From NCBI GenBank assembly GCA_033391075.1, contig JAWPMV010000001.1, positions 1,674,001 through 1,738,000 on the forward strand: a DNA stretch of 64,000 nucleotides. Direction: 5' to 3'. The position numbers and the translations under genes were made by a program. Under the pieces are notes generated by a model. It did not search any database and had not been told where the DNA came from. It saw nothing but the letters and a program-made list of their open reading frames with translations. Positions 1,260 through 41,889 of the stretch are shown here, piece by piece; positions within the stretch are counted from its first letter, which is position 1; every line of letters starts with the position of its first letter. This DNA comes from Bacteroidia bacterium (lineage in GTDB: Bacteria > Bacteroidota > Bacteroidia > J057).

Positions 1260-2612
1260 CTACATGACGGGTTGACGGTCAAATTCTTCCATAAATTTCT
1301 CCACCTTAAATTCTTCTGATGCAATTGACTTGATTTTATCTTCCAATTGGCTAATCCGACTTTTCATTTCTCCTTTTTGGAACTCCCGGATCTGACTTTG
1401 GTCTTCAATCTCTTGTAGAGTCTCCGAATAGCGAGCCATGACTCTTTGCTCATATTCTCCACTGGAAGAAAGCATCTTCGAAACGATAGGCAAGGATTCT
1501 ATACTGAGGAAAATGAATAGGATAAACCAGGAGGTATATTTTCTTTGGGGGTGTTCTTCATTATAGATATAGTCATCCAGACTATCAAGCTTACCGAAAA
1601 GATCATTGATAGATCGTTCGATAGTGGCTTTATTTTCCTGAGATTGTCGATTGATTTGCTGGATTTCCCGATCCTTTTTCCTCTCGCTTCGCTCTATGTT
1701 GTTTTCAACTTTATCCAGTTCATCATGCATCTCATCCAGAGAAAGGAAGATCAGTTCCTCTTCTGTAATTCCTTCGGCCAACAATTCTCTACGCATACGG
1801 GTCGTATCATTGCGGGCTTCTCGATTTCCATTTTCATAGGCCTGAATTCTGGATCGTCCTTGTTTGTTGAGCGATTTTCTAGGAGGGGAATAAGAAGAAT
1901 CTACGCGGATGTAGCGTGTGTCAGAAAGGCTTTTGATTCGTGAGATCGCCTTATTATTAGCAGAAATCCGCCAAAGCTGCTTTTTCCTGGCTTGTTTGTA
2001 TCGATCTATTTTTGCTGCCTTATCCAGTTCCAGTAATACTGCTTCTTTTTTTACCGAGTCTTTTCCCAATTGTTCATCCAGATAAGAAAGCTGTGAGGTT
2101 TCAATCAAACCTTCCTGAGATTTTTTCAATTCTTCTACGGCTGTGGTCATTCCTTCTTTAGCTATCTGGTCCTGAAAGAGCCAAAGCTCGAAAGGTTTGG
2201 TGATGATAAGCGAAATGAGGAGCGCTATTCCCAGCCTGAGGAGGATAAAAGAAAAGGACTTCATCTTTCGACTCAGAAATCCTGTTTTAGCGGCCGTTGC
2301 TGAACGATCTTCCTGCTGTTTTTTGATCCTGTTTTTTCGCTCGCTGGCAATAGAGGCAATCAAGAGCCGATCTATCGTAATGATAAGAAAGGCCCACACA
2401 ATGCCTGCACCCAGGGGAAGCATCCAGCTATTCGGTCCTGCTTCAGGGCCGTTCATGATCAGCTTGGCAGTGAAGCTCCCCGTGATGAAAGCAAAAATTC
2501 CCGTAATCAAAACGAAAGTTCCGATGATGGAGTGCCAGATTCTTTCTGTTTTATCCTCAACTTCCTGGAGGACTTTTGAATCTGAGGTGGCTAAAAACCA
2601 AAGAAATTTCAT
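1260..2612 (-). CDS. DUF4407 family membrane protein with coiled coil
   Basis: This 450-residue integral membrane protein has TM helices at about 29-51, 64-81 and 120-138, a long charged coiled-coil region (about 150-355), and a fourth TM helix at about 360-380 followed by a coiled-coil tail. The 'ITIDRLLIAS' segment at the end of TM2 and 'RLGIALLISLIITKPFELWLF' around TM3 are hallmarks of DUF4407. The family has no established biochemical role. It is the last gene of the minus-strand operon that carries the SEDS-PBP fusion, 11 bp after the TPR-like gene. Its position suggests a membrane scaffold or regulator of that envelope machine, which is inference only. Confidence 0.8.
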   Translation of the reverse strand: MKFLWFLATSDSKVLQEVEDKTERIWHSIIGTFVLITGIFAFITGSFTAKLIMNGPEAGPNSWMLPLGAGIVWAFLIITIDRLLIASIASERKNRIKKQQEDRSATAAKTGFLSRKMKSFSFILLRLGIALLISLIITKPFELWLFQDQIAKEGMTTAVEELKKSQEGLIETSQLSYLDEQLGKDSVKKEAVLLELDKAAKIDRYKQARKKQLWRISANNKAISRIKSLSDTRYIRVDSSYSPPRKSLNKQGRSRIQAYENGNREARNDTTRMRRELLAEGITEEELIFLSLDEMHDELDKVENNIERSERKKDREIQQINRQSQENKATIERSINDLFGKLDSLDDYIYNEEHPQRKYTSWFILFIFLSIESLPIVSKMLSSSGEYEQRVMARYSETLQEIEDQSQIREFQKGEMKSRISQLEDKIKSIASEEFKVEKFMEEFDRQPVM

Positions 2613-2623
2613 GGGGCTATAGG

Positions 2624-3391
2624 TTAAGCAGTTTTACCGTAACATTTATCCAATTCTTCTATCAGACTCAATCCCAATTTGCATTTGGCGATAATGGATA
2701 CTACCTGATCTGTTTCTCGAATTTTGAGGGCTTTGTTAAACTCTTGTAAGGCCAGGTCAAATCGATTTTCCCGGTATAGTTCCAGGCCCGTAGATACAGC
2801 GAGTTTAAATGCGACCCTTTCCTCTATTTCGCCTTCATAAGCATAGGTTTCCGGTGCATGTGTATGTGCAGGAGCTGGATTGGGAACTCTATGCGATGAC
2901 TCAGTTGTTTCTTGCGAAAAATCTGGATAGGAGATCTCTCCTTCTTCAGCAAGGATTTTTCTGATCTGTAGCATTTGTGCCTGCATAAAGGCTCTCGCCT
3001 TATCCTTTATTTTGGGATTTTTGGGATAACGTTCGTAGGCACTACTTGCATTTTTGAGAAACTTCAGGCCCATTTCTTTATTCCCTTTGCCCAGCAGTTT
3101 CTTCCCTTCCAGTTGAAAATGAAGGAAAAGACTAAAATAAATTCGCTTGTCGGCTTCCATGATTTCTTCCGGCGTATGGCTGAGATCTTTGGCCGCCTCA
3201 AAAAAGGAAATAGCATGTGCAAGCTCTTTACTCGCATAAGCCAATTCTCCTCCTTTGAAATAGCTTGCTCTCAGCTTATTCCGTTCCCATAAACTATTGG
3301 GAATACTTCCCTTTAATTGACTAAGGGCTCGATCAAATGATTTGATCTGTAGGAAGTGTTCCGCTTTGTCTAGTGCCTGTTGAAAATTCAT
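2624..3391 (-). CDS. TPR-like helical protein
   Basis: This soluble protein of 255 residues has no signal peptide. Residues 1-145 are alpha-helical pairs resembling tetratricopeptide repeats ('ALDKAEHFLQIKSFDRALSQL', 'AISFFEAAKDLSHTPEEI'). A Pro/Thr/His-rich linker covers about 155-190. A C-terminal helical unit ('GLELYRENRFDLALQEFNKAL') also fits a TPR and ends with 'IVSIIAKCKLGLSLIEEL'-type helices. TPR proteins are usually assembly adaptors. It sits 11 bp after the small bitopic protein gene and 11 bp before DUF4407 in the same operon, so it probably acts as an adaptor on the cytoplasmic side. No enzyme motif is visible. Confidence 0.7.
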   Translation of the reverse strand: MNFQQALDKAEHFLQIKSFDRALSQLKGSIPNSLWERNKLRASYFKGGELAYASKELAHAISFFEAAKDLSHTPEEIMEADKRIYFSLFLHFQLEGKKLLGKGNKEMGLKFLKNASSAYERYPKNPKIKDKARAFMQAQMLQIRKILAEEGEISYPDFSQETTESSHRVPNPAPAHTHAPETYAYEGEIEERVAFKLAVSTGLELYRENRFDLALQEFNKALKIRETDQVVSIIAKCKLGLSLIEELDKCYGKTA

Positions 3392-3402: not shown

Positions 3403-3942
3403 CTATTTGAGATCTTTATCCTGATTGACCAATCCTACCAACATCTGGTAGGGAATACTGATACTTCTACTATTTCCTTTTCTCCGAATCTTGAGTTCGA
3501 ATCCATAAACATCATCATCATAGGCAAGTTGCATATCCAGGTTTTCGCTCAGGAAGTCCTTGAATTTTCCTAAGTCCGGATAGGGATCTGCTGTCATCTT
3601 ATTGAAGCAAGGGAGGTTGAAAGCAGATCTGGAGCTGTTTTCGTCCTCATCCAGATACACCCGCAAATAGCCCCAATGTGAACTCGTATCAATTTTGATA
3701 GAAGGATTCTTTATCTGACTTTTTTGAAGAAGTCTGAGATAGTAATCATACTTGATCTCACCATATTGCCGCTCATTCAGGACAGAGTCCTTTTTAATAG
3801 CTTGTTGGCTGAAACTATGATTGGAATTATGAGTTGGAACTGGATTTAACATAAAACCAAAGAGAGCTAGAGCAATAAGGATCAGAATGAAAAAAATGAG
3901 ATCCTTTTTGAGTTCCTTGTGTATTTTTAGTCTTTGCTGCAT
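3403..3942 (-). CDS. Small bitopic membrane protein of the SEDS-PBP operon
   Basis: This protein of 179 residues has a Lys-rich N-terminal segment (1-13), one TM helix at about 14-32, and an extracytoplasmic remainder. I do not recognise a family. The outer part contains a Ser/Asn-rich linker and then a compact domain with 'HWGYLRVYLDEDENSSRSAF', one Cys, and a basic 'KIRRKGNSRSISIPYQML' ending. The layout (short cytoplasmic tail, one TM, small outer domain) is like FtsL/FtsB/MreD-type accessory factors only in topology, not in sequence. It begins 5 bp after the stop of the SEDS-PBP fusion, so translation of the two is probably coupled and the proteins likely work together. Confidence 0.65.
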   Translation of the reverse strand: MQQRLKIHKELKKDLIFFILILIALALFGFMLNPVPTHNSNHSFSQQAIKKDSVLNERQYGEIKYDYYLRLLQKSQIKNPSIKIDTSSHWGYLRVYLDEDENSSRSAFNLPCFNKMTADPYPDLGKFKDFLSENLDMQLAYDDDVYGFELKIRRKGNSRSISIPYQMLVGLVNQDKDLK

Positions 3943-3947
3943 GTTTT

Positions 3948-6900
3948 CTATTTAATGTGTTGCATTTGGTACCTGAATACCCCTGATTTTTCTACTGCAC
4001 GAATCAGCTTTTGATTCAGGGCCGCATTATTTCCCCGACTATTGAAATAGGAAATATAGATCACAAAGAGAGGCTGGCTATCAGCATCTTCTATCTCGCG
4101 ATAGGGATCATTGAGGTCTTCTTTGCTAATGATGAGCATGAGATGTCGATCATCAAATTTTGTTTTTTCTCCTTTGATAGTTCCCGTTTTTGCATAATAG
4201 TATAAGCGTTCCTGGCCTTTCTTCCTTTTGGTCAGCTGCTTGTAAGCCCGTGCCGTACCAGAGAGTAATACTTCCTCCAGACCCTGCATGGTATTGTCAG
4301 CATGGAAGCGGAGGTATTTGTCAAAATTCTCCCAGCTTTCCTGATCGTAATTGATTGCCTGGAAACTAAGGGTACCTGCAGTATCAAGCGTTGCGTTTAT
4401 ATTTCGGTTTAAACTGGCCATACGTGCGCCCATTTCTGCCATCTTCAAAGGCGTAACTTCTATCGGGAAGCCTCCTACCGTACTTTGCCTGATTCCATTG
4501 ATGTCAAAGAGGTCTCCGCTTCTGTCAATCTGGTAAAAGTGAGACATCTCGGGATAGGACCAGATTTGATAGGAGGAACGGGAGTTTAATAGCTCTTCCT
4601 GTTGGATCATTTGAGGAGAAAAATTTGCATCCTTCATCCTCGACTGATCTATAGGCTTCTGGACCTGAAAATCGAAATTCTCGGAAAGGCCATTAGAAAG
4701 GACAGAATTCAAATCACTCATTATGCCACCGGAAGATGCTTGTGGCCAGTATTGTTTGTCTGGATTGAAAACATATTCGCGGCCATTTTTCCCAAATTTT
4801 ATGCGGGGGAAATTATGCTCCAATTCGGGACTGATTGGTAAAAGGATATGGCCCAGTTTGCCAGGCTTGATTTGGGATTTGCCCCTTAATGCCATGAGAT
4901 CATCCTTGCGATAAGATCCCAGGAACATAATGAGCGAATGATAAAGATTGCTGGACTTGCTTAGGTAACTGATGTTGTTATAGCTTTTATCCAAATCCTG
5001 AGGCCCCAGTCTCCATCGGCCTTGCATGCGATGGCCAGCATAGCGCTTGACATAAGGGGATTTTAGGTTCGCTTCTAACTCGTCTTTGCGATTGGGCCAG
5101 ACAAATTCCATGGATTCCCAGGGATTGATATTTACCCCCGAAGTAACGGCCGTATACATGATGGGCTTGATGCTGGATCCAGGACCATTGTCCAGTCTCT
5201 GCAGGCATCGGTTTCCAAATATGGTTCGCTCACTTCCTCTATCACTTTCCAGATAAAACTTCTGAAAGAGTTCAGAGTATTCACGTGTATTATTTGGATT
5301 AAAGCGACTATCAGGATCTTTTTTGTAGTCTATCATAGAGCGAATCCTGCCCCGATGATCCATGGTAACCATACTCATATCCGTGTCTCCATGTTTCTGC
5401 ATATAAGCTTCAACGATTTCATAAAGCTCTTCACTAAGAGAATAGTCAATGGAAACGTGGACGCTACTATCTCTGAGCTTTTCATCCCGGGATAAAGTCT
5501 GGGATAAAAGATTCGCATAATTGTACGACCATATTGATTTACTACCCAAGGGAAAGAGAAGCTCCTGTTTCCCATTTAACCAAAGGTTTTTTGCCAGATA
5601 TCTGTTCTCCGAACTCACCATTTTGAGCTGAACAGGATTTTCCTGATGATCATATAGATTGATATAATCCTTTGATTCCAATCTATAAGCAAAGGAACGA
5701 GAAGGGTTATTTTTGCTGCTGATCCGGAACTGATCGTTGACAATAGAAAAGTTTCCTTTGTTCGAATTGAGGTCTCCCGATTCGATGCTAATGAGAACCA
5801 AAGGTTTGCCATCAAAGGTCCAGCTAGCCGGAAAAGAGGCAATGCTGATATTGTTGATGTCTTCATTAAGATAAGAAAGGTCGCTATCAGAATCTCTCAG
5901 GCCAGCTTTTTGGAATATGTTGTTCCTCAAGTTTCGGTTATCGACCTGAACAGAAGGCCTATCTGTTTGATTTCTGTAGATGATCTCATGCGTGTTACCG
6001 GTATTTCCAGAGAGCAATGATCCCTTCCATCTTTTTTCCAATTCTTCCGGAGCCCTTAGGAGGTAATAGTTATTGTTGACGGCGAACTCATAGTATTGAG
6101 ATTCCGGTCTGCGCAAATGAAGGATTTGCTGAGGATCGTCCAGTTTGTCTTTGGCGGATTGCTGCACAAAATGATCCCAGACAGAGAGGGTAAATTCATC
6201 ATCTCCTTGTCTGTTCTTTACTTCTGCATAAGAAGGAATTCCCTTTTCACTGGCCCATATTTCAAATGCCTTTATCAGAGAATCAGGTGCTTGAATATTG
6301 GCTCTTCTTTGGAATGTCTGGAAATCTACATTGAGCTTATTCATTTTCGACTGGGTATTCTCAAGGGTTTTCCCCAGCGTAAAACGATGTATATTTTCAT
6401 CTCCTTTATTGCGCTTTCCTCCCTTGGCCAAAACAGGGGCGATGCAAATAAATATTAGAAGCAGCAGCCAGTTTTTAACCCGTAAGAAATTCTCATTCGG
6501 TCTTTTGGAGGCAAATCTTCCTGCACTTTCCTCTTTCAAAAAGAAAATAAGGGTAAGCAAGAGACTGAGGGTGAAAAACAGGGTCATCCGACTTTGCATA
6601 CTGATGAGGGGAAAATCCTGCCCGAAGAAAGCAAAGCGATTACTTACGGTCATCCAGATAAAGAAACCTTGAATGCCCAATAGTAAAGGGATACCTGCCA
6701 GAGCGAGATTACTACCTGAGAAGATATTGTATCGGTAAATGATTCCGGCAAAAAGAAACCCAAATAAGAGCACCAATCCCAAAACAGTCAATTGGGAATG
6801 CTCAGCAATGATATAGCGGAGGATCACCAGATCCGTTGTTTGCGAGATATAAGAGGCACCTTTATTGAAGTGAGGTCGGAGGGTGAAGTATTTATCTGAA

Positions 6901-9593
6901 TCCTTTTGAAGGAGTTGATCGATAAACCACTGGTTTTGTGAGGCTTCCAGCAATTTTCGACTTTGATAACTCTCGAAAGAAATCTCACTGGATATTTCCT
7001 CCAGACTCTTGTTGTGAATAGATGCCCGGTATTTGATATAGGTATATTCCTCAGAAACCTTTTTTCCCGGATTCTCCATAATCCCACTAGCTACCAGGCT
7101 TCCCAAGGCAAGTAAGCAAGTGCTTAGGGCTATCAGGCTGATTCCAGCGATTTTACTGCTTTGTGGATACTTTACCCTAAATCCATAGGCTTTATATCCC
7201 AGATAAGAGAGAAAAAGTAAAGCCGTGAAGATACCTATCCAAAAACTGATGGCCGCCTTGTCGATCAGGATGTCTATGAGATAAGTTGAGTAAAATATGG
7301 ACAGCCCAATGCTAAAAAATACCAGGAGGGTAGCTATTCCCCTTTTCCAGGAAACTCGATTTCCTTTTACCGCACTTATCCCTAAACCAAATCCCAGACT
7401 TAAGGCTCCAAATAAAAGGAATACGATGGAAAAGCCTGCATCTTTCATGAGCAGCCAAATCCAGGTGCTACTTCCATTGAGGAGGCCTAACCAGAAAAGA
7501 TTGTTCTCTAGCAGAGATGCCTGGTTTTGTCCTTTATTTTCTGTCCAGTATTTGAACAAAGGAATGCTCAATAGGAAGAATCCCAAAACCGGAAAAGCAA
7601 TATTGGTAAATCGTTCCAATCTTTCCGGGAAAAAAAGCTCCGTACAAAAAATGAAGGTCCAGTTTGCTGCAAAAGCAATTAGCCAGACTTTATATTTTTC
7701 CCACCAAATTCGCAGCGGTGCTTCTTCTTCTAAGGGAGCATGCTGAAAGAAAGAGAAATTTTTTATTTTCTGTGCCAGGGGAATCCTTTCTACCCAGGTC
7801 TGAAAAATGAGGTATTGAGTGATAATGGCTACAAAGAAAAATCCTATGGCCATATAGGTATCTCGAAAATATACGGGTGAACGGAGCTTGCTAAATATTT
7901 TCAGGTCTATGTCTTCCAAGGGAAGAAAAGTGGCACTTCGCCAGAGCAAAAGCATGCGAACGGTCATGAAGCCCATAAGGAGTCCGTAGATGAGAATTTC
8001 CGCCTTACTAATCTCCTGTTCTTTTTTGATCAGGATGAGGATAAAGCTGAGCAAGGCGATCCAAAAGACCATGCCGAAGATGTGCGAAGTTTGAATGGGA
8101 TTGCTGGCCCTCAGATCATTGAATCTGAACATCCATTGTGGAGTTTTTACGCTAATCTCCGGACTTAGCGAAGAAGAGGTACGCAAAACTTTGAGGGCAA
8201 TGGAATCGGTTTCTCCCATAGAAGTCCGGAGATAGCGATATCCTTTTTCCTCTTTCAAATCAATGGCAGTTCTTTTTTCGCCAGCTTTGTTATAAGAAAA
8301 CTCCCGAAAGCCTGTTGTGCTAAGGTATATGGTGTCTCCTGCCAAATAAGTATCCGGCAGAGGTTCGATGGTGTTTCTGAATTGATCAAGCACTGAAAAG
8401 GACAGGGAGTCATCCGCTTCCCCCAGAAAATACTTGAATACTCCATTGAAGTGGAGGAAATGCTCATCAGCTTCGAACTTTGGAAAATGATAGCCCGCAT
8501 CATAATCGTTCTGCAGGATTTCCAGGGTTGAGGAAGAAATGAATAGGTGCTGCTCACTATCCCGAGGGCCATCCGATCTCAATTTTCGTCTTAGAGGAAA
8601 TTCATGAAAAAGACTGATGCGAGCCCCTTCACGCGAAACTTTATAGGCATCTGTAGCTCTTGTACCACCTAGCCCCAGGAAAAAATGTTGGCTTTCTCCT
8701 AAGCGTATGAAATGACTTTGCTGAAAATCTTCACTCAGTAATTTGTTCCCTTCGAAGTCTTTGAAATAAAGACCGGGAGTTTGGCTCATATTCTCTCCAG
8801 GGAAGAGTCTTAAGGGAGAAAGATTGACCTCTTTGCGGTCGCGATAAAAACTGTTTCTCAGCAAATAGCTATCCTCTATGAGGCTAAGCAAAGTATCAGA
8901 TAGATCGACCCGATAGGTGTTTCTGAGAATGCTTCGAAGCTCAAGTCCTATATTGAGTCTACGAGAGAAACGACTGTTATAAACCAGGCTATCAGATTCC
9001 CTGAAATAGGTGATCCTGTACGTACAACTATCCCGCAGACCTGGCTTGCTTTTCCCCAGGAGGCCCTTCATTTTATTTCCCCATTCAGCCTGAGAGCTTT
9101 GCTTTTCTTTGATTTCCAGTTTGAGCCAGGGTACTTCGATATTCAGAGAATCATTCCAAATTCCTAATTCAAATCCTTTGGAAATATCCAATCCAATTCC
9201 CGTATTGCCTAAATCAAAGGCCCCTGCCTGATGGCTACTTTCTGTGAAAATGGGCTCATGGAAATTGTAGGTTCTTAGCTCAAGCTTCTTTGCACTATCA
9301 GGATGTCTCCTTAGGATAAGTTGGCCTTTTTTACTATTGAGCATGGCCATTTCGGGGAAATACTCATTGGCCAGATAGAGAGAATCTTCAAACTGTATTC
9401 CCAATGCTTGCAAATTGTGGTAATCTGCATTGCTATAGATTTCAAAGTCAGGATTAACATAACGGCTGATGGTCCAGCAAGAAAGAATTCCTATGAGGCC
9501 AAGGGCGCACATATAGATTCGTTTCGATTTTTCTGCTTTGAGGAGAAAAGCCGATATGATAAGTATGGCAAATAATAGTGTGCTAAGGGTCAT
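3948..9593 (-). CDS. Fused SEDS-like glycosyltransferase and penicillin-binding transpeptidase (1881 aa)
   Basis: This giant membrane protein appears to join both halves of a peptidoglycan synthase. Two N-terminal TM helices are followed by a large extracytoplasmic region (about 45-500) that I do not recognise. About ten TM helices then run from about 508 to 1020. In their last loop, 'QTTDLVILRYIIAE' matches the SEDS motif with Asp921 at the position of the catalytic Asp of FtsW/RodA (D297 in E. coli FtsW), and 'GIQGFFIWMTVSNRFAFFGQ' plus 'FPLIS' matches the following SEDS helix. After a last TM (about 1045-1060) comes a class B PBP-like periplasmic part with SxxK at Ser1473-Lys1476, SxN at Ser1547-Asn1549 and KTGT at 1802-1805. 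All three active-site motifs are intact. Ordinary RodA (about 370 aa) and PBP2 (about 630 aa) are much shorter, so the N-terminal domain is extra. Confidence 0.8.
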   Translation of the reverse strand: MTLSTLLFAILIISAFLLKAEKSKRIYMCALGLIGILSCWTISRYVNPDFEIYSNADYHNLQALGIQFEDSLYLANEYFPEMAMLNSKKGQLILRRHPDSAKKLELRTYNFHEPIFTESSHQAGAFDLGNTGIGLDISKGFELGIWNDSLNIEVPWLKLEIKEKQSSQAEWGNKMKGLLGKSKPGLRDSCTYRITYFRESDSLVYNSRFSRRLNIGLELRSILRNTYRVDLSDTLLSLIEDSYLLRNSFYRDRKEVNLSPLRLFPGENMSQTPGLYFKDFEGNKLLSEDFQQSHFIRLGESQHFFLGLGGTRATDAYKVSREGARISLFHEFPLRRKLRSDGPRDSEQHLFISSSTLEILQNDYDAGYHFPKFEADEHFLHFNGVFKYFLGEADDSLSFSVLDQFRNTIEPLPDTYLAGDTIYLSTTGFREFSYNKAGEKRTAIDLKEEKGYRYLRTSMGETDSIALKVLRTSSSLSPEISVKTPQWMFRFNDLRASNPIQTSHIFGMVFWIALLSFILILIKKEQEISKAEILIYGLLMGFMTVRMLLLWRSATFLPLEDIDLKIFSKLRSPVYFRDTYMAIGFFFVAIITQYLIFQTWVERIPLAQKIKNFSFFQHAPLEEEAPLRIWWEKYKVWLIAFAANWTFIFCTELFFPERLERFTNIAFPVLGFFLLSIPLFKYWTENKGQNQASLLENNLFWLGLLNGSSTWIWLLMKDAGFSIVFLLFGALSLGFGLGISAVKGNRVSWKRGIATLLVFFSIGLSIFYSTYLIDILIDKAAISFWIGIFTALLFLSYLGYKAYGFRVKYPQSSKIAGISLIALSTCLLALGSLVASGIMENPGKKVSEEYTYIKYRASIHNKSLEEISSEISFESYQSRKLLEASQNQWFIDQLLQKDSDKYFTLRPHFNKGASYISQTTDLVILRYIIAEHSQLTVLGLVLLFGFLFAGIIYRYNIFSGSNLALAGIPLLLGIQGFFIWMTVSNRFAFFGQDFPLISMQSRMTLFFTLSLLLTLIFFLKEESAGRFASKRPNENFLRVKNWLLLLIFICIAPVLAKGGKRNKGDENIHRFTLGKTLENTQSKMNKLNVDFQTFQRRANIQAPDSLIKAFEIWASEKGIPSYAEVKNRQGDDEFTLSVWDHFVQQSAKDKLDDPQQILHLRRPESQYYEFAVNNNYYLLRAPEELEKRWKGSLLSGNTGNTHEIIYRNQTDRPSVQVDNRNLRNNIFQKAGLRDSDSDLSYLNEDINNISIASFPASWTFDGKPLVLISIESGDLNSNKGNFSIVNDQFRISSKNNPSRSFAYRLESKDYINLYDHQENPVQLKMVSSENRYLAKNLWLNGKQELLFPLGSKSIWSYNYANLLSQTLSRDEKLRDSSVHVSIDYSLSEELYEIVEAYMQKHGDTDMSMVTMDHRGRIRSMIDYKKDPDSRFNPNNTREYSELFQKFYLESDRGSERTIFGNRCLQRLDNGPGSSIKPIMYTAVTSGVNINPWESMEFVWPNRKDELEANLKSPYVKRYAGHRMQGRWRLGPQDLDKSYNNISYLSKSSNLYHSLIMFLGSYRKDDLMALRGKSQIKPGKLGHILLPISPELEHNFPRIKFGKNGREYVFNPDKQYWPQASSGGIMSDLNSVLSNGLSENFDFQVQKPIDQSRMKDANFSPQMIQQEELLNSRSSYQIWSYPEMSHFYQIDRSGDLFDINGIRQSTVGGFPIEVTPLKMAEMGARMASLNRNINATLDTAGTLSFQAINYDQESWENFDKYLRFHADNTMQGLEEVLLSGTARAYKQLTKRKKGQERLYYYAKTGTIKGEKTKFDDRHLMLIISKEDLNDPYREIEDADSQPLFVIYISYFNSRGNNAALNQKLIRAVEKSGVFRYQMQHIK

Positions 9594-9820: not shown

Positions 9821-12643
9821 TTATTTAAGTACATCGGGACTGAGGTAAACGCCGTTTACGAGTACGCCATCCAACTCTTTAATGCCCAATTCTGTTGCGA
9901 GCTTGCGAATCACTTTGCTTGCCTGGGAAATATCAGGGGCAAAAGAAAATGCTTTATAAGATTTGGGATCAAGGTCTTTGACCGTCTGAGTTTTGCGAAT
10001 GAGATGTACATTGAGCCTTTCTTCATGTATTTCAATAGAAGGCAAGGAACGATATCTCAAGTAATCGCAGCTGTGAAGGCCCAGATGAAAGAGCTCTGTA
10101 TAAAAATCCACCTTTTCTTCTTCGCTGAGATGTAAGGGGTCCAGACGATCCAGTTTTTTGAGCATTTGCCCATAGCCTTTGTAGAGATTTTTGATATAAT
10201 CTGCATCCAGATCGTTCTGCCCCTTGGACTGAATCACCTGTTTGTAGATGTCTATCATGGTCCCGAATTTTGCGACCCTTTCTGGTCCAATCCGATACTC
10301 AGACAAAGCCTTTTCTGTATTCAAACCCGGGATCAATTCGGTCAATACTTTATCCAGTTCTTCCAAACTGTTTTGGCTCTCTTCGCTGATGGCCAGGCGT
10401 ATTTGTTGGTAGATCAGGCCATTGATGAGAGGTTTGACTACTTCTGGTCTGAAATTGAGCTTGTGAAGCCCGGATTCCTGATAAATACTTAGGTCTGTCA
10501 ACAAAGCCAGCACCTGATCAACCAGAGAAATGAAGGCTAGTTTGACATCTTTGTCTTGCTTAAGGGATGTGCTGATTTTGTCAATTGTAATTTTCGTTGG
10601 CTGCGTCGCCTGCTCTATCAGCTGCGCATTTTTGAGATGCTTCTGAATTTCTCCTTTGCTATTCTTATCCAGCACCAGGATATGGATCAGTTTTTCCAGC
10701 TCTTGTATTTTATCCGAACCCTTATTCAGGTGTTTGCAGATATCTATCAGTTTTCCCAATGCTAGCTTGCTTTCCCCCTTGAGCTGAAGTTCGAAAGATT
10801 CATGGAGGCTCAGCTTATCTGATAATTTCGCCCAGGATTTTTGAAGCTCTGTTTTATGGTGGCTGTCCATATAGGAGACGAAACTCCCAATCACCTTACG
10901 GATATCAGCTCGAATATCGACTATGTCGAGTATACTTTGATCTACTCCATTTACCTGATCCAGCTTTTCTCCCAAAGGCTTTAATTCTTTTTCCGGGAGA
11001 TTTAGGATTTCTCCTGAGTTCAGAAGGAAGCTCTTTAAATCATCTAATAGATTATCTATTTCGCTTCGGCTTATGATCAGGCATAGTTGACTAATAAAAT
11101 TCTCATAACTAGTGAGTCTTTCTCCTCTAAGTTTCGATTCCTGATCCAAACCCAATTTTTCACCGAGTAAAGCCGAATACTTTTGATTAAGTAATTGGTA
11201 GGTCTTTTCCAATTCAAAACTTTTCTCCCGTTCGGTTTCCAATTGCTTATAGAGGAATTCTTCCTGTTTGTTGAATTGGGTTTGGAGAAAGTTTTTATAA
11301 TCAGAACCCTGTCGTTCCAGTTCATGGCTCAATTTGCTTATCTCAGTATAGAGGCCGTTTTGGCCTTCTTTCTGTTGGAGCTTATCGAGAATTTCGTTGA
11401 GAATGCCCAACTGCTCTCCATTCGTTTCAGAAGAAGCTATTTGTGGAATTTGAACTTCTATTTTCTCTACCTGTCCATGGGTATGACTACTTCCATTGGG
11501 AAGCGCTAATTGAAATTTTTCAATCTTCTGTTGGAGAATTTGGCTTACTTCTTTGATCTCATGGGCGGCGACACGGCTATTTTCAGTAAGGATGAAACTT
11601 AGCTCTTTGCTATCTTTTGCACTCTCGATTTCGTGGACAAAAATTCGGGTGCGGTCGCCCAGTTTTCTGCTTCCGTTTGTTGAAGAGATTTGTACTTTCT
11701 CTATAGGTTTGGCTGTATCACCAATGGGGGTATTGGCTTTTTCCTTTGGTTCTTTTTTCTTTCTCAGTCTAAAAAAACTCAGACCAAGTGGAACGAACAT
11801 CAAAGCTGAAAATAGGGGAAAGAACCAGGCTTGCCAGGGATTGCTTTGGCTTGGTACGTAGGTAGATGGAGTTTGAATTTCTGCCCGAAGGTTCTTATTC
11901 ATATGGGCAAGCAATAAATCATTCGGGTTTTCCAGAGATTTTGTCTCCGCTACATCCTGAAATTCCCCTCCTTCCAGGTAAATTTCTTCTTTTTCTTTCA
12001 ATAGAAAGGCAAGGGAGTTGATGATTACCTCCTGATAACTTGGCTTTTGTCTGGCATTGAGGAGGTTTTCCAATTCCGCTTCATCCGAAATTCCTAACTG
12101 ATTCAAGATGAGGGCTATTTTTTGTTCCTTGCTGTTCCCGATTATGAAATCCGGTTTTGCTTCTGCAAGCATATCCTCATAATTCCTGAAAGAAGGAAAG
12201 ATTACTTCATTGAAACTCCTTAAAAAAACTTTGTCCAGTTTGTCTTTGTTTTCCTGGGAAAAGCGATAATAGTCCAGATTAGAGGTCGCGGAAATCGGCC
12301 CTTTCTGAAGCGGAATATAGAGGCTCCCACTAGGGTAAGCGAAATAGAGGCTGTCCTTGCCTGGAGACATGTAAATCCGAACTACCCGACTTTGTTTAAT
12401 CTGTATGAGTTTATTCCCCTGAATAAATCCATGTTTTTCTCCTGCTGGATTCTTTAATTGAAGGGCCTTCGCTCGCAGCTTTTCCAGGGTTTGGGCGGCT
12501 GGATCTTTTTGTGGATTTTCTCTGAATTCCAGTGAGGGAAAGAGAAAAATAAGCGAAAAGAATAAACCCAAGCCCAATAACAAAGCCATGATGCTATAGG
12601 AATAGAGGGGATCTCTCTTGATATGTTGATTCATTTTTTCCAT
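9821..12643 (-). CDS. Two-TM coiled-coil protein of the SEDS-PBP operon
   Basis: This protein of 940 residues is not one I can assign to a family. It has TM1 at about 17-36, an extracytoplasmic part of about 230 residues, TM2 at about 270-290 followed at once by a basic stop-transfer segment (RLRKKKEPKEK), and about 640 cytoplasmic residues that are mainly helical. Coiled coil is strongest at about 390-540 ('LYTEISKLSHELERQ', 'QLETEREKSFELEKTYQLLNQ'). No Walker motif is visible. The layout would let it carry a signal from the periplasm to a cytoplasmic filament or ATPase. It is encoded 18 bp after the SrfB-like ATPase and before the SEDS-PBP fusion, so a linker role similar to MreC/RodZ is plausible but unproven. 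Met4 is an equally possible start. Confidence 0.7.
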   Translation of the reverse strand: MEKMNQHIKRDPLYSYSIMALLLGLGLFFSLIFLFPSLEFRENPQKDPAAQTLEKLRAKALQLKNPAGEKHGFIQGNKLIQIKQSRVVRIYMSPGKDSLYFAYPSGSLYIPLQKGPISATSNLDYYRFSQENKDKLDKVFLRSFNEVIFPSFRNYEDMLAEAKPDFIIGNSKEQKIALILNQLGISDEAELENLLNARQKPSYQEVIINSLAFLLKEKEEIYLEGGEFQDVAETKSLENPNDLLLAHMNKNLRAEIQTPSTYVPSQSNPWQAWFFPLFSALMFVPLGLSFFRLRKKKEPKEKANTPIGDTAKPIEKVQISSTNGSRKLGDRTRIFVHEIESAKDSKELSFILTENSRVAAHEIKEVSQILQQKIEKFQLALPNGSSHTHGQVEKIEVQIPQIASSETNGEQLGILNEILDKLQQKEGQNGLYTEISKLSHELERQGSDYKNFLQTQFNKQEEFLYKQLETEREKSFELEKTYQLLNQKYSALLGEKLGLDQESKLRGERLTSYENFISQLCLIISRSEIDNLLDDLKSFLLNSGEILNLPEKELKPLGEKLDQVNGVDQSILDIVDIRADIRKVIGSFVSYMDSHHKTELQKSWAKLSDKLSLHESFELQLKGESKLALGKLIDICKHLNKGSDKIQELEKLIHILVLDKNSKGEIQKHLKNAQLIEQATQPTKITIDKISTSLKQDKDVKLAFISLVDQVLALLTDLSIYQESGLHKLNFRPEVVKPLINGLIYQQIRLAISEESQNSLEELDKVLTELIPGLNTEKALSEYRIGPERVAKFGTMIDIYKQVIQSKGQNDLDADYIKNLYKGYGQMLKKLDRLDPLHLSEEEKVDFYTELFHLGLHSCDYLRYRSLPSIEIHEERLNVHLIRKTQTVKDLDPKSYKAFSFAPDISQASKVIRKLATELGIKELDGVLVNGVYLSPDVLK

Positions 12644-15928: not shown

Positions 15929-16813
15929 TTAGTAAGCTGCTAAACCATAATTGATGTTTTGTTCTTGATGAGCCTTTATGTATCCATCAAAATCTCCAGC
16001 TTTCCCATTTATCTTCAGGTTCGGGTTCCGTTTGTTGAACTCTTTTTCTAAAGACTGCAAAAATTTCTCATCGTTTAAAGTTTTGCGAAAAAAGACGACA
16101 TTTCTCCAATAGTGTCGATAGTTATATGCACCTGCATAGTGCTTGATAGCTACCTGGATATCGGTTTCGTCAGCTTTCCTCCTTCGCTTTCTAAAACAGC
16201 TCAACATGCGTCCGACTGCATCGAGGTTCAGAATGGGGTGAAAGCGATCATCGTGTTGTATGAGTTTCTTTCTATCATAATTATTCTTTTCAATCAGGTT
16301 TCTCAGCATTCTGCCGTGGGTCTTGGATTTCAGTAGATTAAAGCCTTTGTACGTCTTCAATCCAAAGTCTGAGGCTGTACTTCCCTGCATATGACAAATG
16401 CCAATTCCTCCATCATCCAGGCAATTGGGTAGCATATCTGCTCCTCCTGTTTCCTGTATGACCATAGCCAAAACCAGGTTTTTAGGGAGATCGTATTTCT
16501 TTTCTACTTTCTCCGAAATATTTTGAAATCTCAAGGCTCGCAATACACGGCCCATGTTTTTTGTCTTGGAATCTACGGCATCAACGCCGCAACGGCTGAC
16601 CTTGCCGATCATACGCAGATTTTCCATGACGGGTTCCTTATGAATAACTTTGTAGGAGAAATTCTTACCAGGCTTGCTTTTTTTGCAAGTATTATTGGTA
16701 AGTCCCTGGACGGGAGCCTTCCTCTGAACAGCTAATTTGTTAACAGAGATCGGTCCGCTAATTAAGAACAGGATTAATGAGTAAGTAAGTACGCTATGCA
16801 TTCTTTCTATCAC
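15929..16813 (-). CDS. Lytic transglycosylase-like (SLT fold) exported protein
   Basis: This protein of 294 residues has an N-terminal signal segment (about 1-27). The domain at about 105-240 has the order of a soluble lytic transglycosylase: 'YDLPKNLVLAMVIQETGG' with the candidate catalytic Glu121, then 'DDGGIGICHMQGSTASDFGL' in place of the usual G-LM-Q motif, and later 'IQVAIKHYAGAYNYRHYW' like the N-Y-G-G region. Such enzymes cut the glycan strands of peptidoglycan in the periplasm. The gene lies 159 bp upstream of the SEDS-PBP operon on the same strand, so a cleaving enzyme is next to a synthesising machine. It may be co-regulated with the operon. An in-frame ATG at 16801 is an alternative start. 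Confidence 0.75.
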   Translation of the reverse strand: MIERMHSVLTYSLILFLISGPISVNKLAVQRKAPVQGLTNNTCKKSKPGKNFSYKVIHKEPVMENLRMIGKVSRCGVDAVDSKTKNMGRVLRALRFQNISEKVEKKYDLPKNLVLAMVIQETGGADMLPNCLDDGGIGICHMQGSTASDFGLKTYKGFNLLKSKTHGRMLRNLIEKNNYDRKKLIQHDDRFHPILNLDAVGRMLSCFRKRRRKADETDIQVAIKHYAGAYNYRHYWRNVVFFRKTLNDEKFLQSLEKEFNKRNPNLKINGKAGDFDGYIKAHQEQNINYGLAAY

Positions 16814-36815: not shown

Positions 36816-37577
36816 TTAGGACTTCTTATTGAGTTTGTAAAGGACGGGTTTGCTTGGAGCTGCATCCAGGGGCATGGATGGAAATTGCAGGTTTAGCAGA
36901 TAGAGCCCATCTTCGATTTCATCCGGAACATAGATCAGTTCTGTAATGGTACAATCTGCCCGTGAATCGTCCAGGGCCTCGCGATGAAATACTTTCCAAA
37001 ATACATGATGAGACAAGAGTTTGCCCTCATCACTTTCTCTATCTACAGAAGGAAGATCAATCAATAAATGTTTGACTTTATTTTCCACCAAAAACTTCAT
37101 GGCTTCGTGGTGCAAATACGGAGGATTTTTGCCCGAATAATTTTTGTTCAGTTTTTCCTCAGAATTGGGCAAGGTTCTGATGATAATGGCTTCCTCTATT
37201 CTTTCAGGCAAAGCCGCCTGAAGCTTCTCTTTCGTAATTACTCGATCTCCCCCTTCTTTTTCTTCAAGGGAAATGCTGAGCACATTCGCAAAGAAATGAA
37301 ATTGTTTCAGTTGGTCATTGAGGGATTGATGCTTGAGCGTAATGTGGCCGAGACATTCGGTATGTGTCCCATTTCCATGAGGATTCATTTCCACATCGAA
37401 AAAGTTTACCGGAGATCCCATTTTTACCGAACCCACAAAATCAATCGCCATAACCGGACTGATTTTAAAATCGTCAGCAAAAAAACATTTTACTTGCCCT
37501 AATGGAATCGAGATATCCAGGGGCTGATTAAGATCAGCCTCATAATTTTCGCCTGCATGTGTCAATTGAATTCTCAT
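36816..37577 (-). CDS. kynB: Kynurenine formamidase-like cyclase-family protein
   Basis: This protein of 253 residues is in the KynB/cyclase metal-dependent hydrolase family. The metal motif is '[14 protein letters not shown]' (canonical HxGTHxD here reads HGNGTHTE). '[25 protein letters not shown]' is the second family motif and supplies the later His. KynB hydrolyses N-formylkynurenine to kynurenine and formate; the cluster has no other formamidase, which supports the role. It is longer than typical KynB (about 210 aa) because of insertions around 85-130. The kmo stop overlaps its start by 4 bp. Confidence 0.8.
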
Positions 37578-38920
37578 CCGTTAATACTCATTAGTTTTCG
37601 GTGGTAAACTTCGAGAGGAATTTGGTCGAAATCGTCTTGGCTACACAAATCCAATAAAAGTTGATCCTGCTTCCTCCCACGTATCATTGCCTTTTCATAA
37701 GGCAGCTCGGGTTGGAATGTTACCAGGGAATATTTGGAATAGTAATCCGGAAATTCCTGCTCTAATTGCATTTCGATCTTCCGCTTTCTCATGAAATTCA
37801 AATCATCTACATGATCTCTCATTTCATAGAAATTGTCAATGGCCAAATCTGCAATAGCATCGGTATTCTTTTTTCGTTTGTCCTGGAAAGTCGTGAATAC
37901 TTTTTCCCAGTTTGCCCCCTCTTTCTCCAAAATTTCATCAAACACCCGCACATCTTCCAAAGATGCATTCATCCCCTGACCATAAAAGGGAACAATGGCA
38001 TGAGAAGCATCTCCCATGATCAAGCCTTTGCCAAATGCCTGCCAGGGATAGCATTTGATGGTTCCAAGGGTTCCCACCGGATTCTCGGCAAACTCTTCCT
38101 GATAGTGGGGAATGTAGGGGAGTAAGCTTGGATAATATTCATGAAAGAAGGCTTCCAGTTTTTCGCTTGTATCTAATCCGTTAAATCCGATTTCAGTATC
38201 AAAAGGATGAAACATGGTCAGGGTAAAGCTGCCGTCGAGATTTGGCAAAGCAATGATCATGAAACTTCCTCTAGGCCAGATATGAAGGGCTTCTTTCTCA
38301 ATCTTCCAGCTTCCACTGGCATCGGGATGGATGCTCAATTCCTTGTATCCATGTCTGAGAAAATCCTGTGAATAATTGAATAGCAATTCGGTAGTATGTC
38401 CCATCATGCTTCTTCTGACGATAGAACCCGCACCATCTGTCCCAATCACAATGGCTCCCTGATCTTCTTTTGTTCCTTCTGCACTCCGATAGGAAATGCG
38501 AGCTTCTCTCAAGTCTATGTTGAGTACTTTGGCGTCAAAATGAAGTTCTATATTTTCATAGCCTTCTGCTTCATTGAGCAAGGCAATATTTAAACCTGGA
38601 CGAGATACCGAATTGATATAATCAGCCGATCTTCCACTATAGGGCGAAAGAAAAGGTGCTCCCTCTACGGGATGAATCATTCGTCCTTTCATAGGGATGC
38701 AGGTCTCGAGGATGCTTTCCTTTAAATTAGCTGAATCCAGGGCCATCAGACCGCGATTAGACAAGGCCAGATTTATGGACCTGCCGGCATCCAGCACCTC
38801 TCCCCGCATATCCGTTCTTTTCTCATAAAGGGCGACTTTATACCCTCTTTGTGCCATTCTTATGGCTAGTAAACTTCCACAGAGCCCTGCTCCAACTATG
38901 ATGATTTTTTCTTTATTCAT
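37574..38920 (-). CDS. kmo: Kynurenine 3-monooxygenase
   Basis: This FAD-dependent aromatic hydroxylase of 448 residues opens with the dinucleotide motif 'IIIVGAGLCGSLLAIRMAQRG', has 'DAGRSINLALSNRGLMALD' which is diagnostic for KMO, 'VIGTDGAGSIVRRSMM', and the FAD motif 'LIMGDASHAIVPFYGQGMN'. It uses NADPH and O2 to make 3-hydroxykynurenine. Eukaryotic KMO has a C-terminal membrane anchor; here the C-terminus is polar, so the enzyme is probably soluble. It is followed by kynB with a 4-bp overlap and preceded by kynU with 8 bp. Confidence 0.95.
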   Translation of the reverse strand: MNKEKIIIVGAGLCGSLLAIRMAQRGYKVALYEKRTDMRGEVLDAGRSINLALSNRGLMALDSANLKESILETCIPMKGRMIHPVEGAPFLSPYSGRSADYINSVSRPGLNIALLNEAEGYENIELHFDAKVLNIDLREARISYRSAEGTKEDQGAIVIGTDGAGSIVRRSMMGHTTELLFNYSQDFLRHGYKELSIHPDASGSWKIEKEALHIWPRGSFMIIALPNLDGSFTLTMFHPFDTEIGFNGLDTSEKLEAFFHEYYPSLLPYIPHYQEEFAENPVGTLGTIKCYPWQAFGKGLIMGDASHAIVPFYGQGMNASLEDVRVFDEILEKEGANWEKVFTTFQDKRKKNTDAIADLAIDNFYEMRDHVDDLNFMRKRKIEMQLEQEFPDYYSKYSLVTFQPELPYEKAMIRGRKQDQLLLDLCSQDDFDQIPLEVYHRKLMSING

Positions 38921-38928
38921 AAGTTCAA

Positions 38929-40212
38929 TTACAAACGCTCAGCAATTGCAGATTTTAATATCGTATAAAAATGATGTACATCCTCATAAGAATTGTACAT
39001 AGCCGTAGGAGCCACACGAATCACATCCGGCTCTCTCCAGTCAGCAATAACTCCCTTTTCACTGATTATGTTAAAGAGATCTTTGGTAGCATTTTTTACG
39101 CGAATAGAAAGTTGTGATCCCCTTTGGGTAGGATCTGCGGGAGTAATGATTTCCACGACATCCTCTCCCAAAGATTTTACCAGGTATTCCAGATATCCCG
39201 TAAGCTGAATGGCTTTTTTCCGCAAGCGATCCATGCCCACTTCCTCAAAGAGTTTCAAAGAAGACCAAACGGCAGCCATTGCCATGATAGGAGGATTGCT
39301 CAACTGCCAGGCTTCTGTGCTGGGAATGGGTTCAAAGGCATCTCTCATTTTGAAACGAGTATCCTTATTGTGTCCCCACCATCCTTCAAAGCGAGGAAGA
39401 GAATTGTTGTGATGATGTCGTTCATGCACAAAAACGCCCCCCATACCTCCGGGACCCGAATTGAGGTATTTATAATTGCACCAGACAGCAAAATCGCAGC
39501 CGGAATTATGGAGATCCAGAGGAAGATTGCCTGCTCCATGCGCACAGTCAAAGCCAACATAGCAACCCTGCGCATGTCCCCATTCGCTGATCTTTTTCAT
39601 GTCGAAATACTGACCGGTATAGTAATTACTATTGCCCAGCATGATGAGAGAAATTTCTTCTCCCTGTTCCTGAATCAGAGCTTGAATATCCTCTTCTCTC
39701 AGGCAGTATTCTCCTTCTCGGGGTTTGAGTTCAATCAAACATTCTTTAGGCTCAAGTCCACGAAATCGAATTTGAGATTCGACGGCATATTTATCTGAGG
39801 GAAAAGCATCTGATTCTATGACTACTTTTCTCCGCTTTCCTTTGACCTGATAAAAGGAAACCATCATCAAGTGGAGGTTGACTGTAAGGGTATTCATGAC
39901 CACCACTTCTTTGGGCTTTGCGCCTACAACTTTAGCCATGGCTGCAGTCAGGAATTCATGGTAGGGCATCCATGGGTTTTTTGCATGAAAATGCCCTTCG
40001 ACTCCTAATTTCTTCCAATCCTTGAGCTCCTGCTGGAGAGCTTCTTCTGTCGATTTGGCCTGGAGGCCCAGAGAGTTTCCGCAGAAATAGATGTATTCCT
40101 CGCCATTTTCCTGAAGAGGCAAATGAAAGTGCGATCTATAGGACCTTAATTCGTCCTGCTCATCCAGTTTGCGCGCATAAGCAAGCTCTAATTGATGCGT
40201 CTTTACGGTCAT
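38929..40212 (-). CDS. kynU: Kynureninase
   Basis: This PLP enzyme of 427 residues splits 3-hydroxykynurenine (or kynurenine) into 3-hydroxyanthranilate and alanine. Visible motifs are 'YFCGNSLGLQAKS' (N-terminal substrate loop), 'VVVMNTLTVNLHLMMVSFY', 'FDCAHGAGNLPLDLH' with the PLP-pairing Asp, and 'AVWCNYKYLNSGPGG' with the Schiff-base Lys. The length fits the family. The gene abuts ACMSD (stop at 40213) and is followed 8 bp later by kmo, so it is inside the operon. Confidence 0.95.
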   Translation of the reverse strand: MTVKTHQLELAYARKLDEQDELRSYRSHFHLPLQENGEEYIYFCGNSLGLQAKSTEEALQQELKDWKKLGVEGHFHAKNPWMPYHEFLTAAMAKVVGAKPKEVVVMNTLTVNLHLMMVSFYQVKGKRRKVVIESDAFPSDKYAVESQIRFRGLEPKECLIELKPREGEYCLREEDIQALIQEQGEEISLIMLGNSNYYTGQYFDMKKISEWGHAQGCYVGFDCAHGAGNLPLDLHNSGCDFAVWCNYKYLNSGPGGMGGVFVHERHHHNNSLPRFEGWWGHNKDTRFKMRDAFEPIPSTEAWQLSNPPIMAMAAVWSSLKLFEEVGMDRLRKKAIQLTGYLEYLVKSLGEDVVEIITPADPTQRGSQLSIRVKNATKDLFNIISEKGVIADWREPDVIRVAPTAMYNSYEDVHHFYTILKSAIAERL

Positions 40213-41301
40213 TTAGCTTTGTAATGTATTCTGTGAAACCCTTTGTAAAAACTGATCTTTTTCATCTCCACATAGCCAACGAACTACATTGTCATACCAT
40301 ATTTCATGGTGCTGTTCCTGGGTGATCACTCCTTCTTCTACTGCCAGATCCAGCAATTTGCCCGGATAGGAAGATTGAGCTTCACTTTCCATTTCCCCTA
40401 AAGGATAAGGATCATCCAAACCTAGAATGATCTGGTCCGTACCTTTTTGCCGTCTAACCATGAGATCCAAAGAGAAGGTATCATGAACCAGGGTGTCGAA
40501 ATAAATATTGGGATGTCCGATTGCTTTTCGGGGTCTTACCTGACCTTCAAACAAATCTGGACGTCCATCAAATCCCTGCGTCCTTCTTCCAATATTGAGG
40601 TGATTCAACTGACCTCCATGGGCGAAACATACCCGAATATTGGGATACTTATCATAAAGTCCGTCCAGGGTATAAAAGTGATAGGCATCTGCACATTGAG
40701 CAATCATCCAAATCAGGTGGAATCGCCAGGCTTTATTTTGGAGCTGGATGAACTTTTCTCCATCATAAGGATGAATTTCTATGGCAAGTTTGTATTTGTT
40801 TGCCAATTCCAGAATAGGAGCTGTTTCCTTATCAAAAATGCCTCTCCAGGTTCCAATCGAGTCCATATAATGGGTGGGCAAGCAAAGGACTTTTAATCCC
40901 AGTTCCTCTACACATCGCTCAATTTCCCAGCAAGCACCATCTATGAAACCTGCATGAACAACAAAACCACAAGTGAATTTTGTGGGATGGTCATGCTGGA
41001 CCTGAGCGTTGAAATCATTCTGAAAGCGCAGGGCATATTTCATATCGCGAATGCGAAGCCCATTTCCGTACAATTGGGAAAGGTTCAGGACGACCGCATG
41101 GTCTATGCGGTTTTTTTCCATCCATTCCAGTTTTTCATTGAGAAAGAAACTGGAATCCGTTACCGGACGTTTCCAGCCTTTTTGAAGCATATATTCTCTG
41201 TCCTCGTCAATCCAGAAAATCTCTTTTTCCTTCAAATAGGAAGGGATTTGTTCCGGATAAGGCAGGAGATGGGAGTGACCATTGATGCGTAATTTGTTCA
41301 T
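40213..41301 (-). CDS. nbaD: 2-amino-3-carboxymuconate-6-semialdehyde decarboxylase (ACMSD)
   Basis: This amidohydrolase-fold enzyme has 362 residues when started at the ATG 41301 (MNKLRINGHSHLLPYPEQ). An upstream ATG at 41433 is in frame but would overlap 98 bp of the 3-HAO gene. The metal motif is His9-x-His11, with 'VCFAHGGQLNHLN' and 'IILGLDDPYPLGE' supplying later ligands and the active Asp. ACMSD decarboxylates the product of 3-hydroxyanthranilate dioxygenase, steering carbon away from quinolinate and NAD synthesis into catabolism. It lies next to the gene of that dioxygenase. Confidence 0.92.
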   Translation of the reverse strand: MNKLRINGHSHLLPYPEQIPSYLKEKEIFWIDEDREYMLQKGWKRPVTDSSFFLNEKLEWMEKNRIDHAVVLNLSQLYGNGLRIRDMKYALRFQNDFNAQVQHDHPTKFTCGFVVHAGFIDGACWEIERCVEELGLKVLCLPTHYMDSIGTWRGIFDKETAPILELANKYKLAIEIHPYDGEKFIQLQNKAWRFHLIWMIAQCADAYHFYTLDGLYDKYPNIRVCFAHGGQLNHLNIGRRTQGFDGRPDLFEGQVRPRKAIGHPNIYFDTLVHDTFSLDLMVRRQKGTDQIILGLDDPYPLGEMESEAQSSYPGKLLDLAVEEGVITQEQHHEIWYDNVVRWLCGDEKDQFLQRVSQNTLQS

Positions 41302-41335
41302 CGCTATTGGCTTGGAGGGGGCTAAGGTGAAAATT

Positions 41336-41851
41336 CTATTTGGGCGGTTCCATTTTTGCACCGCATGAATCACAGGTTCGCAAACCTTCATTGGAGTAAT
41401 ACTTGTCAAATAAGACAGGCATATCCGTCTCAATATTTTTTAGCATAAAGGGTTCCTCGTAGAGTTTGTTGTGGCAGTTTTCACAAAACCATGCAAGGCC
41501 ATCTTCCATATCTTCTTCTCTTTTTTGCTCTATTACCAGCCCTACTGTATTGGGACCTCTTTGTGGAGAGTGAGGGATATTGGGGGGTAAATAAAAGACT
41601 TCTCCTTCGCGGATATGAATATCTCTGGCTTCTCCTTCTTCAATAACCTTTAGAATAATATCTCCTTCTACCTGGTAAAAGAACTCAGGCGTTTGATTCA
41701 GGTGATAGTCTTTGCGAGAATTGGGACCACCGACTACCATCACAATGTAATCTTCATTGTAGATGGCTTTGTTTCCAACGGGTGGTTTGAGAAGATGTCT
41801 GTTATCCTCTATCCAAGCTTTGAAATTGATTGCCGGAGCTAATTTTGCCAT
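41336..41851 (-). CDS. nbaC: 3-hydroxyanthranilate 3,4-dioxygenase
   Basis: This cupin enzyme of 171 residues opens the ring of 3-hydroxyanthranilate. The iron ligands are visible in their family positions: His50 and Glu56 in 'DYHLNQTPEFFYQ', and His94 in 'PPNIPHSPQR'. The C-terminus carries the extra rubredoxin-like site of bacterial HAOs: 'CENCHNKLYEE' and 'CDSCGAKM' (two CxxC pairs). The protein is soluble and should act as a dimer. It is 38 bp after kynA and 34 bp before ACMSD. Confidence 0.95.
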   Translation of the reverse strand: MAKLAPAINFKAWIEDNRHLLKPPVGNKAIYNEDYIVMVVGGPNSRKDYHLNQTPEFFYQVEGDIILKVIEEGEARDIHIREGEVFYLPPNIPHSPQRGPNTVGLVIEQKREEDMEDGLAWFCENCHNKLYEEPFMLKNIETDMPVLFDKYYSNEGLRTCDSCGAKMEPPK

Positions 41852-41889
41852 AGTTTTTTAAGGATTAAAGGTGAAAGAAAGCTGATGAT

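Follow-up and report, generated by a model that had tools for sequence, protein, structure and literature searches.

The locus studied here raises the question whether one very large gene can code for both a peptidoglycan polymerase and its partner transpeptidase, and to what kind of wall-synthesis system such a protein would belong. The gene lies in a stretch of 64,000 nucleotides from a Bacteroidia bacterium (contig JAWPMV010000001.1, positions 1,674,001 to 1,738,000, hereafter the window). A preliminary description, which named no strand, had proposed a single-chain fusion of a SEDS (FtsW/RodA) polymerase with a penicillin-binding protein (PBP), bearing intact motifs and an extra outer domain. 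The gene proved to be on the minus strand (Table 1), many stops occurring on the plus strand over the same interval (3948-9593). The single-chain SEDS-PBP organization stood; the size ratio given with it did not. The description had also missed a conserved operon with an ATPase akin to MreB and Hsp70, a setting that alters the nature of the synthase system. The best reading of our results is a dedicated third synthase resembling the Rod complex, for which activity, substrate and outer-domain role are predicted.

Table 1. Features of the synthase gene and of the gene run in which it lies (window positions; operon genes are given in the order of transcription)
Feature	Position	Strand	Basis
Actin/Hsp70/MreB-superfamily ATPase, 1035 aa	12662..15769	minus	invariant motifs DFG, DxGxGTTDxS, GR
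940-aa protein, two predicted membrane helices then long cytoplasmic coiled coil	9821..12643	minus	position
Single-chain SEDS-bPBP protein, 1881 aa	3948..9593	minus	one uninterrupted ORF, ATG start
Two predicted membrane helices (H2-19, H24-46) with positively charged loop between, residues 1-46	9456..9593	minus	hydropathy and model
Beta-rich outer (periplasmic) domain, residues 47-500	8094..9455	minus	model; no convincing known fold
Extra membrane helix, residues 501-525, predicted to return the chain to the cytoplasm ahead of SEDS helix 1	8019..8093	minus	topology inferred
SEDS (FtsW/RodA) polymerase fold, residues 526-1028	6510..8018	minus	VIA-align and hhalign
Asp921 codon, SEDS catalytic Asp of extracellular loop 4 by alignment	6831..6833	minus	hhalign and family alignment
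Membrane helix starting the PBP half, residues 1035-1061	6411..6491	minus	hydropathy and model
Linker and PBP pedestal, residues 1062-1370	5484..6410	minus	solved-PBP matches start at about residue 1181
Class B PBP transpeptidase domain, residues 1371-1881	3951..5483	minus	profiles and fold
SxxK, residues 1473-1476 (SSIK)	5166..5177	minus	family alignment
SxN, residues 1547-1549 (SSN)	4947..4955	minus	family alignment
KTGT, residues 1802-1805	4179..4190	minus	family alignment
179-aa protein, one N-terminal membrane helix and outer part	3403..3942	minus	positional counterpart of conserved gene of about 150 aa
255-aa protein, weak TPR match, outside conserved core	2624..3391	minus	Pfam
DUF4407 membrane protein, 450 aa, end of run, outside conserved core	1260..2612	minus	Pfam, E 2.7e-33

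A class-level search recovered one full-length homologue (1828 aa, 27-28% identical) in Edaphocola flava, and 25 loci were found in the genome collection, belonging to Chitinophagales, Taibaiella, Edaphocola, Emticicia, Saprospiraceae, Prevotellaceae and a Phocaeicola MAG. Homologues ranged from about 1710 to 1880 aa and their distribution across Bacteroidota, including Saprospiraceae, Chitinophagaceae, Emticicia and Prevotellaceae, was patchy; for Chitinophagaceae, the family of Edaphocola, about 26 solid cases were recorded in 244 genomes. Two matches (G738 and the second one of G778) turned out to be PBPs of canonical size, about 700 aa, and were set aside, while a short partial match in G940 was not counted as a solid member. 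The family profile was made from an alignment of 23 homologues. In the translation, Asp921 (within SQTTDLVI) and the SxxK, SxN and KTGT motifs were all read at the residues first assigned to them, and all four were invariant in these 23 homologues. Since identity to the window protein was only about 23-30%, such invariance points to constraint and not to chance. Asp921 was also retained in six further, more distant loci.

Evidence for the identity of the C-terminal half came from both profiles and fold. The Pfam transpeptidase model PF00905 matched nine of the 23 family members (best E 2.3e-7), and the PBP2/MrdA model, which was the commonest NCBIfam match, six of them. When the synthase family was compared with PBPs by hhalign, an E-value of 6.2e-7 was obtained, and a second, weaker alignment (E 0.004) placed SxxK and SxN in register. 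The protein was modelled with AlphaFold in two overlapping parts (residues 1-1050 and 1030-1881). The second part displayed a middling mean pLDDT of 68, with most of the transpeptidase core at 80-94; Foldseek matched it to PBP3 (E 7e-11) and VIA-align to class B PBPs with Z-scores of 25.6-27.6, in alignments that reached up to 387 residues and took in the pedestal. The class B PBP-like fold extended from about residue 1180 to residue 1878. The features of this class were present (SxxK/SxN/KTG in a transpeptidase fold, N-terminal helix and pedestal), and Pfam revealed no GT51 domain in the window protein or its homologues. A class B PBP identity of this half is thus strongly supported by sequence comparison and modelling, as is, through profile-profile comparison and fold, the proposed union of SEDS and class B PBP with intact motifs in a single chain.

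For the SEDS half, direct searches of family libraries were negative. In single-sequence hmmscan no Pfam family matched the window protein directly, the Pfam SEDS model PF01098 matched 0 of the 23 family members, and the same search in the host genome recovered two ordinary SEDS genes and not the giant synthase. Likewise, single-sequence NCBIfam searching of the window protein returned a weak PBP fragment only, PADLOC nothing usable, and a profile search of PDB sequences with the synthase family no significant match. The SEDS assignment proposed for residues 508-1020 was therefore not borne out by a direct Pfam match, but it was by profile-profile comparison, in which the 23-member family, aligned by hhalign with FtsW/RodA proteins from relatives, gave an E-value of 3.4e-5 over residues 909-1020. 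There, Asp921 was aligned to the SEDS catalytic Asp and the stretch FFGQDFPLIS to the ECL5 motif TGxPLPLIS, with P995 and S998 on the motif. The reversed-profile control for this comparison yielded an E-value of 0.058 (0.058 and 0.61 for the reversed-profile controls overall). The alignment was limited to the C-terminal part of SEDS, and most SEDS-conserved loop residues were unrecognisable.

At the structural level, the model of residues 1-1050 displayed a middling mean pLDDT of 64, and Foldseek alone gave no significant match to it; the SEDS match was obtained when VIA-align was run on the lower-ranked Foldseek candidates. The best row was RodA 6bas (Z 16.6, 276 of 298 residues, rmsd 3.7, model residues 526-1025), followed by FtsW 8bh1 (Z 15.0), RodA-PBP2 6pl6 (14.8) and 8tj3 (14.6), these three over model residues of about 525-1027. 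All four first ranks were thus occupied by SEDS structures (Z 14.6-16.6), and the next row stood at Z 7.2. Since Foldseek was not significant, the SEDS claim draws jointly on VIA-align, the profile comparison and the conserved Asp. On these grounds we settle on a predicted RodA/FtsW fold for residues from about 526 to 1027, in a model of middling pLDDT. The refutation that the preliminary description had set for itself thus did not come about. The sequence of this half is very diverged, and SEDS proteins show a weak similarity to O-antigen ligases (PMC8765783), a likeness that would suit a GT-C enzyme of the O-antigen ligase or polymerase type, handling another undecaprenyl-linked glycan to which the transpeptidase would attach peptidoglycan or at which it would trim it. 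We regard this alternative as quite improbable, given that the four best structures were RodA or FtsW, that Asp921 fell on the SEDS Asp and that the same chain continues into a class B PBP with its pedestal.

Hydropathy, charge and models led to a self-consistent layout, in which both ends of the SEDS part would be cytoplasmic, with four elements placed outside, namely the outer domain, the Asp921-bearing loop 4, the pedestal and the transpeptidase. The extra outer domain had been estimated at about 450 residues, a size that proved correct (residues about 47-500), and it was found throughout the family between the N-terminal membrane hairpin and the SEDS bundle. Its pLDDT within the model of residues 1-1050 was mostly about 60-88, except for residues 164-189 and 429-482. 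The VIA-align matches of this domain (Z about 4, to pieces of a viral spike and of a carotenoid oxygenase) were judged to be noise. It was the least conserved large part of the synthase: the count of columns with at least 95% conservation was eight for the outer domain, 39 for SEDS, ten for the pedestal stretch and 45 for the transpeptidase part, indicating that constraint is strong on the catalytic parts and far weaker on the outer domain.

A synthase split into two adjacent ORFs of 589 and 1188 aa occurred in two genomes belonging to a single genus (L123:7317-12653 and L124:6943-12282), the first ORF comprising the outer domain and the first SEDS helices, the second one the remaining SEDS part and the PBP. 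This split form keeps the catalytic residues and the operon. The split point, near window residue 612, falls inside the helix bundle of SEDS instead of between two domains, so that the outer domain remains linked to SEDS. In two other loci, with ORFs of 1725 and 1736 aa, the pedestal stretch was shortened: L032:8510-13684 is devoid of roughly window residues 1200-1330, and in G897:C3:392114-397285 a gap separates profile positions 1174 and 1279. Both are possible natural deletion variants.

The synthase gene is the third of six that follow one another on the minus strand, from position 15769 down to position 1260. The ATPase gene is separated from the 940-aa gene by 18 bases, the latter from the synthase by 227, and the synthase from the 179-aa gene by five. 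Neighbouring genes were grouped by all-against-all clustering, and an ATPase gene was found near the synthase in all 24 loci with enough flank as well as in six of six further distant loci. Moreover, among 395 sampled Bacteroidota genomes, full-length matches to the ATPase and to the synthase occurred in the same two genomes only. The conserved core consisted of the ATPase gene, mostly a membrane/coiled-coil gene (220-440 aa), the synthase and a gene coding for a one-helix membrane protein of about 150 aa, with one or two further membrane-protein genes also shared. At locus L023 the ATPase gene was divergent, and no coiled-coil gene was seen there. For the window, it was mainly gene position that served to match the coiled-coil and small membrane proteins to their counterparts. 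The 940-aa protein did not cluster by BLAST with the coiled-coil counterparts of other loci; it stands in the place of the coiled-coil gene and its C-terminal tail resembles that of the L012 counterpart (LDGVLVNGVYLS and LDDVLLSGVKLS). DUF4407, the family of the last gene in the run of the window, was weakly matched by the coiled-coil gene of locus L123 (split form) as well. A defence-system reading of the locus found no support in the PADLOC search.

The ATPase motifs (DFGSESSQ-like, DxGKGTTDFS and GRGFLF-like) were invariant and followed the order phosphate-1, phosphate-2 and adenosine. By hhalign, the ATPase family matched MreB at E 9.9e-5 with the adenosine motif in order (the second match reached only 0.047) and Hsp70 at E 5.5e-5, while direct matches to MreB models were weak (8 of 22 members, and 4 of 22 in another search). 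The about equal fit of both profiles is what would be expected of an Hsp70-like chaperone for the assembly or quality control of a very large membrane enzyme, the synthase itself acting alone; matches to PDB sequences, mostly to Hsc70 and none of them significant, point in the same direction. Yet, the ATPase has no visible Hsp70 substrate-binding domain, its matches in the curated library were mostly to MreB/actin-like models and not to DnaK, and neither a J-protein nor an exchange factor was seen in the clusters, so that we hold a chaperone role to be rather unlikely. The profile match is local and does not separate a chaperone from a cytoskeletal role.

In the Prevotellaceae and Phocaeicola loci L013, L021 and L027, the core was followed at its 3' side by TerD-domain genes (E down to 5.5e-73) and by a gene for a protein with CW_7 cell-wall-binding repeats; two of these loci had a P-type cation ATPase gene there as well. 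Such neighbours, which link this lineage of the system to Ter-type stress genes, hint at a stress role; they were not seen in the other lineages. Stress-type TerD genes beside the Prevotellaceae copies, a large outer domain and a patchy distribution would together suit a sensor of beta-lactams or wall damage, whose catalytic parts were retained for binding and not for bulk synthesis, a very unlikely proposition for a chain in which the catalytic residues of both halves are invariant and no signalling domain was seen.

Two further observations concern the window. Just upstream of the ATPase gene, a 294-aa ORF (15929-16813, minus strand) showed a weak lysozyme-like match (E 0.061) and an ETGG-type stretch like that of lytic transglycosylases; it is possibly a wall-cutting enzyme. 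A gene run at 36816-42993 (minus strand) resembled the kynurenine (tryptophan breakdown) pathway, as judged from translations only.

The host genome contains two canonical SEDS genes besides. The first belongs to a cluster at C1:5253502-5259043 that includes genes for PBP and MreB; the second, at C1:4354511-4365955, is accompanied by a PBP gene and by an actin-family gene about as long as ftsA. Separate SEDS proteins of this host measure about 385-425 aa and PBPs about 620-705 aa, i.e. about 1050-1100 aa for the sum. The window protein is therefore about 1.8 times as long as such a pair, and the threefold size first put forward was overstated. No homologue of the giant synthase was found in 12 genomes from the family of the host, which, together with the canonical SEDS, PBP and MreB genes located elsewhere, argues for a third, optional set. 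Single ORFs that unite SEDS and PBP have been reported (PMC10449877), in agreement with the preliminary description, and the fusion itself is thus not new. An ordinary fusion of the host RodA-PBP2 or FtsW-FtsI would unite the same two enzymes. It is nevertheless extremely unlikely in this case, where separate SEDS, PBP and MreB genes are intact, no SEDS model matches, and the protein comes with a 450-residue extra domain and an ATPase operon of its own. Since the synthase is patchily distributed and its host retains the canonical sets, it probably serves under particular conditions (stress, special growth or wall repair) and has no housekeeping role.

We consider it probable that the locus codes for an accessory third peptidoglycan synthase, composed of a SEDS polymerase and a class B PBP in one chain and forming a dedicated complex with the operon products. 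Its closest analogue is the RodA-PBP2 Rod complex with MreB, where a SEDS polymerase, a class B PBP and an actin-family ATPase are likewise associated (RodA being the best structural match, Z 16.6). In the Rod complex, MreB acts through RodZ and MreC. The present system differs by a synthase made of one chain instead of two, to which an N-terminal hairpin, an outer domain and a linker helix are added, by an ATPase of 750-1035 aa across loci (about 340 for MreB), by its accessory and patchy nature, and by operon proteins among which Pfam and NCBIfam recognised no MreC, MreD or RodZ. The FtsW-FtsI divisome (with FtsA) displays the same enzyme pairing (FtsW 8bh1, Z 15.0), but no link to division genes was observed here and the other differences are those noted for the Rod complex. 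Class A PBPs also unite polymerase and transpeptidase in one chain; their polymerase is a GT51 domain, whereas that of the window protein is of SEDS fold. The fusions reported in reference PMC10449877 share with it both enzymes in one chain, and are set apart, from their description, by the size of the present family (about 1710-1880 aa), the outer domain preceding SEDS and the dedicated operon. Our searches of the open-licence literature brought up no description of a synthase of this size, of its outer domain, of its divergence from all SEDS models or, above all, of the dedicated actin-family ATPase operon.

In such a complex, the SEDS part would polymerise lipid II and pass the chain to the adjacent transpeptidase. 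The cytoplasmic ATPase may position or activate the synthase through the bitopic coiled-coil protein, by its topology a putative counterpart of RodZ and MreC, and the outer domain could activate or regulate the SEDS-PBP pair from within the same chain, in place of a separate MreC- or FtsQLB-like protein. The preliminary description had suggested a sensor or substrate-binding module for this beta-rich and poorly conserved domain, a role that it may also have. To the fuller picture of a hitherto undescribed, self-contained Bacteroidota wall-synthesis machine we give an even chance; its single operon would provide a one-chain polymerase/cross-linker that carries an activator domain, an actin-family ATPase reserved for it and a protein spanning the membrane between the two, all working beside the normal elongasome and divisome.

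SEDS-PBP pairs are major antibiotic targets, and their control by cytoplasmic actin-like proteins is an open question. Current protein-family libraries miss the synthase system described here. If our reading is true, a small operon in which nature has combined a single-chain synthase and its dedicated ATPase would offer a compact test system for such control, and bacteria, among them gut Prevotellaceae and environmental Bacteroidota, can own a third, accessory wall-building machine.
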